Shown: positions 54,987-58,575 of the stretch, in pieces
Layout of the letters: the number at the start of each line of letters is the position of its first letter
Position numbering within the stretch: position 1 is the stretch's first letter
DNA from: Hyphomicrobiales bacterium
GTDB taxonomy: Bacteria; Pseudomonadota; Alphaproteobacteria; Rhizobiales; Xanthobacteraceae
Length of the DNA: 64,000 nt
Assembly: GCA_017305665.1 (NCBI GenBank)
Contig: JAFKKH010000031.1
Span: 1 to 64,000 of the forward strand
Reading direction: 5' to 3'
Position numbers and translations under genes: made by a program
The notes under the pieces: model-generated
What the model was told of the DNA's origin: nothing
Database searches by the model: none
What the model saw: only the letters and a program-made list of their open reading frames with translations

Positions 54987-55883
54987 TCAGCGGCGTTTCG
55001 TCAACCGCTTGGCGGCCTTAGCTCGCTTTTTCGTGACCTTTTTCGCTGTCTTGCGGGGCGCCTTCGACGTCCGGGCAGCGGAGGTTCCACGACCCTTGGG
55101 GAGCCCTCTTTTGACCGTCTTTTTGGCCTTGCGGGCAGCCTTTTTGGCCGATTTTTTCGTGGTTTTTGCGACCTTTTTGGTCACGGCCGCCTTCTTGGCC
55201 AACTTTTTGGCCTTAGGAGGCTTTTTGGCCGCTCCAACCGCCTTTTTAGCGGATGCCTTTCTGGCTGCCGCCTTCTTCTCGGCCTTAGCGTCCGAGGCGC
55301 CAATGGCGGCCAGAACCCGGTAGATGTCCCGTGTGACGTGCTCGATCGCCATCATGCCATCGACCGTCAGCAGTTTCCGGCGCTCGGAATAGTAGTGAAT
55401 CAACGGCTCGGTCATCGACCTGTAGCTGGCCAGCCGCTTCGACAATACCTCGGGTGTATCGTCAGCCCGCACTGCCTCGCCCCGTGCGGTCATTTCCGCG
55501 ACCCGGCTCTCGACGCGCTGCAATAGTGCACTTTCGTTGACGCGGAGCTCGACCACGGCATCGAGTTTCAGGTGCTTGGAGCGGAGCAGATGGTCCAGCG
55601 CCTCGGCCTGCGGCACGGTGCGGGGAAACCCGTCCAGGATGAAGCCATTCTTTGCATCCGGCTGGTCGAGTCGGTCGGAGATGATCCCGATCACTACATC
55701 GTCCGGAACCAGCCCGCCGCTCGCCATGATGTCCTTGGCCTTGAGGCCGACGGGGGTGCCGGCGGCCACGGCCGCGCGAAGCATTTCACCGGTGGAGAGC
55801 TGAACGATTCCGTAGTGATGAACCAGCCGTTGCGCCTGCGTTCCCTTGCCCGCCCCCGGCGGTCCGAGAAGAATCAATCTCAT
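54987..55883 (-). CDS. adk: Adenylate kinase with histone-H1-like Lys/Ala tail
   Basis: 298 residues from ATG 55883, against about 190-215 for the family. The kinase core is complete: P-loop GPPGAGKGT (7-15), [23 protein letters not shown] and [18 protein letters not shown], with the short LID. From about residue 196 a 103-residue tail follows with some 33 Lys and 10 Arg but only two acidic residues, built from KKAAxKK-type repeats like histone H1/AlgP proteins. Underlying DNA repeats GGCCAAAAAG. It may bind nucleic acid or ribosomes. The start is 14 bases after the secY2 stop. Confidence 0.93.
55119..55265 (-). repeat. Imperfect GGCCAAAAAG-type DNA repeats in adk tail
   Basis: The minus strand carries several near-copies of GGCCAAAAAG separated by short variable pieces, coding AKK units. 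It is the DNA basis of the Lys/Ala-rich tail and could expand or contract by slippage. Confidence 0.6.
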
Positions 55884-55897
55884 GAAGAATTGCCCCC

Positions 55898-57097
55898 TCA
55901 CCCGGTGAGCGAGCGGCCGCGCACCTGTGCTTCGATGTCGAGAACGGTGCAGACGATGATCAGTACCGAACCTCCAGCAAAGTAATACGGCACCTTGGCA
56001 TAGGCGATCAATGCCTCCGGAATAAGAAGTACGGCGACAAGGTAGGCGGCGCCGGCGAATGTCATCCGCGAGATGATATGATCGAGCTGACTGGCAGTCG
56101 CCTCGCCCGGTTCGACTCCCGGCATCGTTGCTCCGCCTCGCTGCAGGGACGCAGCCGCATGCTCAGGATCGAGAACGAACGCCGTATACACCAGCGACAG
56201 GATAGCCACGGCGACGACCATATAGATCATGTGGCCGGGCTGTCCCGCTTGCATGAACTTGAGAGCAGCACCAGCCCAGCCGTCCTGCCCGCCTCCGACG
56301 AGGCCGGCGACAGTCAGCGGCAGATAGAAAAACCAGGGCGCGATGATCGCGGGGAAATAGCCGGCGTTGTTGAGCTTGAGCCCAAGCTGCGACTGTTGCG
56401 GCGGCAAGACACGACCGCCAACCTGTTTGCCTGCGAACTCAAGCGGGATACGTCGCCGCCCACGCTCGACGAAAACGATACACGCCACAAAGCAGACGGT
56501 CAGAACAGCCAGTCCGAAAAGGCTTCCATCCGACAACGCCCCCGACCGATGCAGTTCGACCGTCGCGACCGTCTCGGCCGCAAAATCCATCACGATGCCA
56601 ACGCACAGGATCAAGGCGAGACCGTTGCCGATGCCGCGCTGCGTGATCTGCTCGCTAAGCCAGATCACGAACATGGTGCCACCGGTCATCGTGACGGTCA
56701 CAGACGTAACGAAGAGCAAACCACCCTCGCCCGCGAGACTCGGTATCCCGGACAACGCGCGTGCGATTCCCACGGCCTGAAACACGGCCAGCGTCATCGC
56801 GAGGATGAATGTGTAGCGTGAGATCGCGCGCCGCCCGGCGTCGCCTCGCCGTGCGATCGCGTTGAAACGGGACGAGACCAGCGACAGCAGTTGGATCAGG
56901 ATCGCGGCGAAGAGATAGGGCTTTAGCCCAAGAGACAACAGCGAGAGACGCCTGAGCGTCGCGCCACCGTGAGGTTCATGGAGGATTTGTGCTAACGCCT
57001 GAGGATCGATGCCGGGAACGGGAACGTAGCTGCCGAGCCGGTAGACGAGGAGCGCGCCGAGCGTGAAAGCGATACGCCTGGCGAGCTCCGGGGTCAC
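55898..57097 (-). CDS. Divergent second SecY (SecY2-like) translocon paralogue
   Basis: 399 residues from GTG 57097, overlapping the secY stop by GTGA. Ten membrane segments align with SecY ([41 protein letters not shown]). Differences: about ten residues missing in the plug region ([18 protein letters not shown] against 28 positions in SecY); MPGVEPG, with Glu329 where SecY has Arg357 (PGIRPG), the SecA-contact residue; no amphipathic N-terminus and no C-terminal tail. All membrane helices are intact, so it is not a decaying copy by sequence. Substrate, and dependence on SecA or SecE, unknown. Confidence 0.9.
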
Positions 57098-58425
57098 CGA
57101 CGGCGGCCCCTCAGCTTCGATTTCCTTATGAGGCCTTCATACTGGTGAGCCAGCAGATAGCCTTGCACCTGCGCCACCGTATCCATCGTCACGCTGACGA
57201 CGATCAGCAGCGACGTGCCGCCGAAATAGAATGGCACCGCCGCGTAGGAAATCAGGATCTCCGGGATCAAACAGACCACCGCAAGATAGATCGCGCCGGG
57301 CACCGTGATGCGCGAGAGGACGTAATCGATGTATTCCGCGGTGCGCTCGCCCGGCCTAATGCCCGGGATGAAGCCGCCATGCTTCTTCAGGTTGTCCGCG
57401 GTCTCGGTCGGGTTGAACACGATCGCAGTATAGAAGAACGCGAAGAACACGATCAGCGCGAGGTAGAGAATCAGAAACAGCGGACGGCCGTGGCCGAGTT
57501 GGGTCGTCAGCCACTGGAACCATTCCGGCCCCTTGCCCGCGTTGAACTGTGCGATGGTGGTCGGCAGCAGCAGCAGCGACGAGGCGAAAATCGGCGGAAT
57601 CACGCCCGAGGTGTTGAGCTTCAGCGGCAGATGCGAGGACTGACCCTCGAACATCTTGTTGCCGACCTGGCGCTTCGGATACTGGATCAGCAGCCGGCGC
57701 TGGGCACGCTCCATGAACACGATGAATGCGATCACCGCGACCACCATGATCAGAACGATCAGGATCAATCCGGTCGACAGCGCGCCCTGACGTCCGAGTT
57801 CGAGCATATTGGCGAGCGCGGACGGCAGTTCCGCGACGATGCCGGCCATGATGATCAGCGAAATGCCGTTGCCGATGCCGCGCGAGGTGATCTGCTCGCC
57901 AAGCCACATCAGGAACATAGTGCCGCCGGTCAGCGTGATCGCGGTCGACACCAGGAAGAACATGCCGGGATTGCTGACGACGTTGCCGGCGCCCTGCAGG
58001 CCGACGGCAATGCCGTAGGACTGAAAGAATGCCAGCACGACGGTGAGATAGCGGGTGTACTGATTGATCAGCTTGCGGCCGGCTTCACCCTCTTTCTTGA
58101 GAGCCTCGAGCTGCGGCGACACCGTTGTCAAAAGCTGCAGGATGATCGATGCCGAGATGTACGGCATGATGTTCAACGCAAAAATTGCCATACGGTGGAT
58201 GCCACCGCCGGAGAACATGTTGAACATGCCGAGGATGCCGCCGGACTGGGAGTTGAAGACCTTTTCCCAGATGCCGGGATCGATGCCGGGCAGCGGAATG
58301 TAGGTGCCGAGGCGGTAGACCAGCAGCGCACCCAAGGTGAACCAGATGCGCTTCTTCAACTCGTCAGCTTTTGCGAAAGCCGAGAAGTTGAGGTTGGCCG
58401 CCAGTTGTTCCGCTGCTGAGACCAT
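57094..58425 (-). CDS. secY: Protein translocase subunit SecY
   Basis: 443 residues, the standard length. Ten membrane segments; [40 protein letters not shown], a full plug region (GMFNMFSGGGIHRMA), pore sequence MPYISASIILQLL, loop GFIPGIRPGERT with Arg357, and C-terminal [12 protein letters not shown]. It forms the SecYEG channel in the inner membrane. The 150-base gap to rplO is usual; the stop overlaps the secY2 start. Confidence 0.99.
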   Translation of the reverse strand: MVSAAEQLAANLNFSAFAKADELKKRIWFTLGALLVYRLGTYIPLPGIDPGIWEKVFNSQSGGILGMFNMFSGGGIHRMAIFALNIMPYISASIILQLLTTVSPQLEALKKEGEAGRKLINQYTRYLTVVLAFFQSYGIAVGLQGAGNVVSNPGMFFLVSTAITLTGGTMFLMWLGEQITSRGIGNGISLIIMAGIVAELPSALANMLELGRQGALSTGLILIVLIMVVAVIAFIVFMERAQRRLLIQYPKRQVGNKMFEGQSSHLPLKLNTSGVIPPIFASSLLLLPTTIAQFNAGKGPEWFQWLTTQLGHGRPLFLILYLALIVFFAFFYTAIVFNPTETADNLKKHGGFIPGIRPGERTAEYIDYVLSRITVPGAIYLAVVCLIPEILISYAAVPFYFGGTSLLIVVSVTMDTVAQVQGYLLAHQYEGLIRKSKLRGRRR

Positions 58426-58575
58426 TGTCGGCTTTCTCCCGCGCCCCTCTTGCTGTCATGCCCCGCGATAGCGGAGCATGAGGCAGACGCCGGACCCCAT
58501 GTGGTACTCGGCTTTCGATAAATCTACCATCTGCATGTCCACTGTCGCCCGCCAATGCGGACGATGACGCAGATG

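Follow-up and report, generated by a model that had tools for sequence, protein, structure and literature searches.

The window, the whole 64,000-nt stretch of DNA analyzed here, carries two secY genes in tandem on the minus strand. The upstream gene (57094..58425, minus strand) encodes SecY, the housekeeping translocon subunit of 443 aa, with its PGIRPG motif and full plug kept. Directly behind it lies a GTG-started gene for a SecY paralogue of 399 aa (55898..57097, minus strand), recognized from its open reading frame, its family matches and its intact orthologues. The stop codon of secY and the start codon of the paralogue share the four bases GTGA (57094..57097, minus strand); this arrangement had been noticed in the original prediction and is borne out at these coordinates. 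The gene for adenylate kinase, adk (54987..55883, minus strand), which was named from its sequence, starts 14 nt past the paralogue stop, giving the spc operon order secY, paralogue, adk, all on the minus strand. Open reading frame translations identified the genes around the pair as members of the spc and alpha operons, encoding ribosomal proteins and RpoA, and the neighbours at about 52.3-63.8 kb as ribosomal protein, adk and rpoA genes. The window's adk has a long Lys/Ala-rich C-terminal extension that we do not know from other adenylate kinases. No sigma-70-like promoter site was found in a promoter scan of 55800-58500, and the GTGA overlap suggests translational coupling of the paralogue to secY. 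For comparison we assembled 55 loci, made up of 52 from Bradyrhizobium, the window and one from each of two further genomes (G018 and G034). With starts assigned by a start-codon rule, 37 of the 55 loci have a 4-nt ATGA or GTGA overlap with the secY stop, and in the remaining 18 the paralogue starts 2-21 nt past it. The window's genome (5.03 Mb, 47 contigs) gave just two SecY matches, secY and the paralogue.

The paralogue belongs to the SecY superfamily, scoring 234.2 bits with Pfam PF00344 (gathering score 32.2). It barely passed the NCBIfam model TIGR00967 (258.1 bits, cut-off 253.6), with which the true SecY scored 439.8 bits. Structure prediction used 29 sequences: that of the window protein and those from 28 of the 41 loci titled Bradyrhizobium. 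The AlphaFold2 model contains the ten helices that had been claimed from the sequence, all of them long; it is of middling quality (mean pLDDT 70.5, pTM 0.66), the remaining four models having a mean pLDDT of 57.4 to 46.5, and it is weakest at the end of C4 and start of TM7 and in C5 (pLDDT below 50 in residues 238-254 and 307-333). In a Foldseek search with this model, E. coli and Thermus SecY chains were the top PDB matches, with a TM-score of 0.76.

With the housekeeping SecY of the same operon (TIGR00967, PF00344) the paralogue has in common its fold, the ten helices, the operon position and several core residues of C3, C4 and TM7. It differs in having lost the RPG arginine, in its plug, in a Trp at position 282, in short tails, in an acidic C5 loop and in an omega value 5.6 times higher. 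The PGIRPG motif of the window's SecY aligns with PGVEPG of the paralogue, as predicted, so that Glu329 (codon 56111..56113, minus strand) occupies the position of E. coli R357 in the C5 loop and the paralogue lacks the RPG arginine that marks a housekeeping SecY. This position is Arg in all 55 partner SecYs and in none of the 55 paralogues, where it is Ala (47), Glu (3), Met (2), Pro (1), Thr (1) or Val (1). The loss of the arginine is thus general, whereas the Glu on which the original prediction had dwelt is not: it occurs only in the window, G018 and G499, the latter two being early branches, and Ala is the usual residue. The R357E substitution is presumably that of the secY39 allele. TM7 of the window's paralogue reads APWFFYLP, the aromatic segment that had been pointed out. 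Also in TM7, Trp255 (codon 56333..56335, minus strand) lies at the lateral-gate position S282 of E. coli, which is replaced in every paralogue (Trp in 54, Arg in one). The S188 position is Ala in 54 and Ser in one, and the T404 position is Gly in 52 of 55. Within the pore ring, position 278 is Thr in 50 of 55, and positions 82, 86, 191 and 408 are still hydrophobic apart from one Pro at 82.

The plug-bearing segment between the first transmembrane helix and TM2b (56930..56989, minus strand) is shortened as predicted. Counted between E. coli positions 38 and 81, it comprises 42 residues in the window's SecY and 32 in its paralogue, a deletion of 10 residues by which the paralogue also departs from the full plug (TM2a) of a housekeeping SecY. 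Across the set this segment is 42 residues long in 55 of 55 SecYs and 25-32 in 52 of 55 paralogues; in the paralogues of G018, G034 and G499 it is near full length (41-42). The terminal extensions described as missing are present as short tails, with 5 residues at the N-terminus (23 in SecY) and 6 at the C-terminus (22 in SecY); the two tails are likewise short across the 55 loci. The C5 loop has a net charge of 0 in SecY and of -1 to -5 in the paralogues, in which C4 is still basic. All 55 paralogues keep Asn185, Arg242, Lys268, Asn270, Pro276 and Gly359, as well as a small residue at E. coli G240. At 54 positions SecY is fixed (at least 54 of 55) and the paralogues are mostly fixed to another residue (at least 47 of 55). 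With region borders that we assigned, the C3 loop, TM9, TM1 and TM3 rank as the best kept and the plug and two periplasmic loops as the least. Most of the changes in the window's paralogue are common to a clade and extend beyond the single genome in which they had been seen.

A profile search found an intact tandem paralogue in 52 of 265 Bradyrhizobium genomes. These copies score 562-700 bits, and ordinary SecY scores at most 459 with the same profile. Tandem copies were also found in two more genera (G018 and G034), so the gene is conserved well outside the strain in which it was noticed. Among the 9 genomes of the window's genus only the window's own has an intact paralogue; G003 and G008 carry remnants directly after secY, and six of the 9 have no paralogue match at E 0.001. 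In the family-level search of 391 genomes the carriers are those among the matches listed, and more may exist. In the order-level searches just a small number of candidates from each genome is scored; the one covering 397 genomes revealed no further member of this type among the matches listed, and no such paralogue was present in 13 of the 14 out-of-family genomes with a second match (all but G737) when these were re-examined. A scan of a named collection with profile A2, for the best 80 of 294 relatives, gave 79 loci, 41 of them titled Bradyrhizobium, and a contig scan with a single paralogue protein as query gave no match. A literature search, in which subscription papers lay mostly outside, found nothing on a Bradyrhizobium SecY paralogue.

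In a tree with 32 of the 55 paralogues, these form one clade with 100/100 support beside the SecYs of their own family; the tree has one outgroup row, four of ten intended outside SecY rows being missing. On it, the plug was shortened at least twice. The paralogues of G018, the window and G499 combine Glu at 357 with Trp at 282, and since those of G018 and G499 have a full-length plug segment, the changes at the switch (R357) and in TM7 are, on this sequence evidence, older than the shortening of the plug. A divergence filter left 1303 of 1485 pairs, over which omega for the paralogue has a median of 0.35 (5-95% range 0.24-0.46) and a maximum of 0.55; for SecY the median is 0.062. Similarly, third codon positions hold 53% of the differences between paralogues and 81% of those between SecYs (27 disjoint pairs). 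No internal stop occurs in the 55 paralogues, all of which were picked as intact. The paralogue is therefore under purifying selection, though much relaxed relative to SecY. A recent duplicate peculiar to this strain, decaying and without conservation elsewhere, was raised at the outset as what might undo the original prediction; it is ruled out by the spread over 52 genomes, the omega values and the single clade. Together, these data demonstrate an old tandem secY duplicate whose reading frame purifying selection has preserved in 52 genomes of Bradyrhizobium, the window's genome and two further genera.

The gene is dispensable: it is accessory, often lost and fast evolving. At least 16 further genomes of Bradyrhizobium carry remnants or broken copies behind secY; among these matches some are weak (to E 8e-4). 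On a secY tree of 99 rows, built by a quick method from loci at hand with remnant-bearing genomes deliberately included, the label intact or lost changes at least 18 times, 14 of these changes being forced by starred branches. Such fast evolution and turnover, together with the remnants in G003 and G008, are what a slowly decaying duplicate with little function left, caught before its loss, would also produce. We consider this very unlikely in view of the single old origin, an omega that does not exceed 0.55 in any of the 1303 pairs, and derived residues that are nearly fixed over 55 loci. Furthermore, twelve of the scars left behind have one motif in common, from which we conclude that the independent losses are probably fewer than 18.

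Partner proteins were surveyed in 24 genomes, 12 carriers and 12 non-carriers. SecE and SecG are single copy in 24 of 24, as is SecA of the main type. YidC is single copy in 23; the exception, G018, has a further match that is partial. A second SecE, SecG, YidC or SecA was rejected as a candidate partner, as none tracks the gene in the 24 genomes. SecA2-like second SecA genes were observed in one carrier (G115:C22:42200-43363) and in three non-carriers (G164:C1:1519892-1521046, G003:C1:2701110-2702240 and G002:C97:7664-8794). A dedicated export gate with partners of its own, one of the roles first suggested, is therefore unlikely: apart from the SecA2-like gene in G115, the 12 carriers have no second SecE, SecG or full-length SecA. 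The search for a second secA or secE that had been proposed thus turned up no second secE in the 24 genomes, and SecA2-like extras that exist but do not follow the paralogue. On these profiles, the partners of the paralogue must be the housekeeping ones, or else lie outside what the search models find. According to PMC8082313, FtsH degrades E. coli SecY when SecE is absent; by analogy, the retention of a second SecY suggests that it binds SecE, and its conserved residues are likewise what would point to SecE binding.

The accessory SecA2/SecY2 system of streptococci and staphylococci likewise includes a second, diverged SecY in a bacterium. An assignment to SecY2 was ruled out by scores far below the cut-offs (114.6 of 249.6 bits with TIGR02920 and 127.7 of 353 bits with PRK12417) and by absent partners. 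The window's genome has no SecA2, containing one full SecA and one other match that is short and weak (25.8 bits). It gave one SecE and one SecG match with no Asp4/Asp5 (SecE-/SecG-like) extras, of which very diverged forms could escape such a search, and no serine-rich repeat adhesin or glycosyltransferase genes are among the neighbours at about 52.3-63.8 kb. Unlike SecY2, the paralogue lies inside the spc operon and groups with the SecY of its own family. The contrast with the Gram-positive systems drawn in the original prediction is thus upheld by scores, partners and locus.

What the altered residues might mean is suggested by work on E. coli SecY. According to PMC4826270, an RPG-motif variant (EDP) dramatically loses SecA activation and translocation, prlA4 (TM7/TM10) partly restores both to RPG-defective SecY, and the RPG region is proposed to work as a switch in coupling to SecA or to the ribosome. 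PMC4737761 describes R357 stacking on rRNA A1392 in SecYEG bound to a translating ribosome. The view of R357 as a SecA contact, with which the original prediction began, therefore stands with respect to SecA activation and does not stand as a contact of SecA only. Since this residue also touches rRNA, the suggested insertase that works without SecA cannot simply be assumed to dock on the ribosome in the ordinary way. According to PMC8256087, S282R is a prlA suppressor in which the lateral gate is shifted to open, and TM7 mutations unlock SecY. The laboratory RPG and prlA alleles of E. coli likewise comprise an RPG change and changes in TM7 and the plug region, with opposing effects on activity (PMC4826270 and PMC8256087). 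Unlike in these mutants, the combination in the paralogue is natural, clade-wide and found beside an intact SecY.

The resemblance of the plug loss and the S282 change to prl alleles could indicate a signal-tolerant export gate. The paralogue would then be a Prl-like channel, its plug reduced, that exports proteins whose signal sequences are weak or missing, and the housekeeping SecA would drive it in spite of the missing arginine; in E. coli, an RPG defect is partly offset by prlA4 (PMC4826270). We regard this reading as improbable. The C5 loop is acidic and without R357, no second SecA tracks the gene, omega suggests a light task, and an exporter that is always unlocked would presumably risk leakage.

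We tentatively favour a different reading, which we hold to be possible while stopping short of calling it probable: the paralogue may be a pre-unlocked SecY that serves a narrow task, of the insertion type, with the housekeeping SecE and without the usual SecA/ribosome switch. It would fold as SecY and pair with the single housekeeping SecE, and with SecG. The arginine that couples SecY to SecA and the ribosome would be dispensed with, and the resting lock formed by plug and TM7 would be removed or replaced by the bulky Trp. The protein would in this way pair a silenced switch with changes at positions where, in E. coli, mutations unlock the channel. Beside SecY or in a mixed complex with it, such a protein would most likely be no SecA-driven exporter but an accessory lateral gate through which certain membrane segments are inserted or assembled. 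Insertion is the most likely task to be suggested by the contacts lost, rather than by a positive insertion signature. Among the observations that speak against a pre-unlocked channel are these: with Thr at pore-ring position 278 in 50 of 55 paralogues, sealing may be poor, and the omega 5.6 times that of SecY and the frequent absence of the gene also fit a light or regulatory task.

The main rival reading is that of a partner that passes no proteins, in which the paralogue would bind SecE, or form mixed dimers with SecY, and so tune the number or activity of working SecYEG complexes. The R357 contacts to SecA function and the ribosome are gone, as this reading would have it, and the polar residue at 278, the coupled position behind secY (the four-base overlap of 37 loci), a single SecE and SecG to share and the patchy retention all agree with it. 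However, the other pore-ring positions (82, 86, 191 and 408) remain hydrophobic with their one Pro exception, and the specific, nearly fixed changes of TM7 would be needless for a pure titrator of SecE; we consider it plausible but rather unlikely. A SecY family in which 55 of 55 members lack R357 and 52 have a shortened plug has been kept by selection beside the normal SecY. It is a natural experiment on the purpose of the RPG switch and the plug, available in culturable soil bacteria, in which one may ask if a SecY deprived of them can still work, or regulate.

PMC4826270 describes R357 as completely conserved across the three domains of life. We read six of the 38 loci of the A2 scan with other titles than Bradyrhizobium. 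One of them, L222, gave no frame under our filter; the other five are ordinary SecYs from different bacteria, in which this position is Arg in three (L221, L223 and L224, with GIRPG) and Lys in two. The latter, L227 and L240, are ordinary SecYs of Erysipelotrichaceae/Bacillales with GIKPG and GLKPG, contrary to the published complete conservation. The position thus tolerates another basic residue in ordinary SecYs; no acidic or neutral residue was found there in those read. One further second SecY (L169, G193:C1:3476113-3477330) has an intact GIRPG and lies far from the main copy in a single-contig genome. It has an odd C-terminal extension, and a gene read as a LysR-type regulator is nearby.

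Orphan SecY-like proteins of about 350-400 aa were observed away from secY in 19 of 377 Hyphomicrobiales genomes and in G021 (examples are L160, 1166-2212 on the minus strand, and L259-L266). By eye, their neighbours include purB in two genomes and hisB in another. The orphans resemble the paralogue in the N-terminal half and in length; unlike it, they do not lie beside secY and, in the alignment of nine proteins, are without the RPG motif and nearly all of C4/C5. All nine, having been found with the paralogue profile, score higher with it than with TIGR00967; against Pfam, one has no hit and one falls below the SecY cut-off. A tree was made with 18 of the 55 paralogues, 9 orphans and 16 SecYs, excluding the long paralogue of G034, and drew a long-branch warning. 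In it the paralogues do not fall neatly into a single clade but need two changes (one change in 26% of bootstrap trees), and the orphan G703 is placed among them. Support for a common origin of orphans and paralogue is 100/98, in a part of the tree where, by the tool's warning, long branches meet, and a common origin read from these sequences is unsafe. A wider speculation, which we think unlikely, is that there is a natural class of pre-unlocked translocons, sharing the housekeeping SecE, in which loss of the RPG arginine came before loss of much of the plug, and that with the orphans it would amount to an order-wide Hyphomicrobiales lineage of non-canonical SecY channels without the SecA/ribosome switch.

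Finally, we compared the sites from which the paralogue is missing. The secY stop and the adk motif LGPPG lie 11 nt apart in 14 of the 15 non-carriers compared from outside the window's genus, and 172-484 nt apart in seven of the eight relatives within it, the eighth being unmeasurable. The motif TTGGCG-18-TATGATA lies ahead of adk in 12 of 12 scars with a spacer of 282-414 nt, and in none of four short scars or three intact genes; this survey excluded the longer-spacer remnants (G460, G540, G191, G468, G512 and the window's genus). The scars with the motif (L161-L166, L170-L173, L124 and L128) have a well-conserved stretch that aligns with the 3′ end of the paralogue. By this likeness in sequence, the decayed 3′ end of the paralogue may have turned into an adk promoter and spread, and the scar allele may have done so by recombination. 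The positions of the scar carriers on the secY tree are scattered, a pattern suggestive of exchange of this allele.
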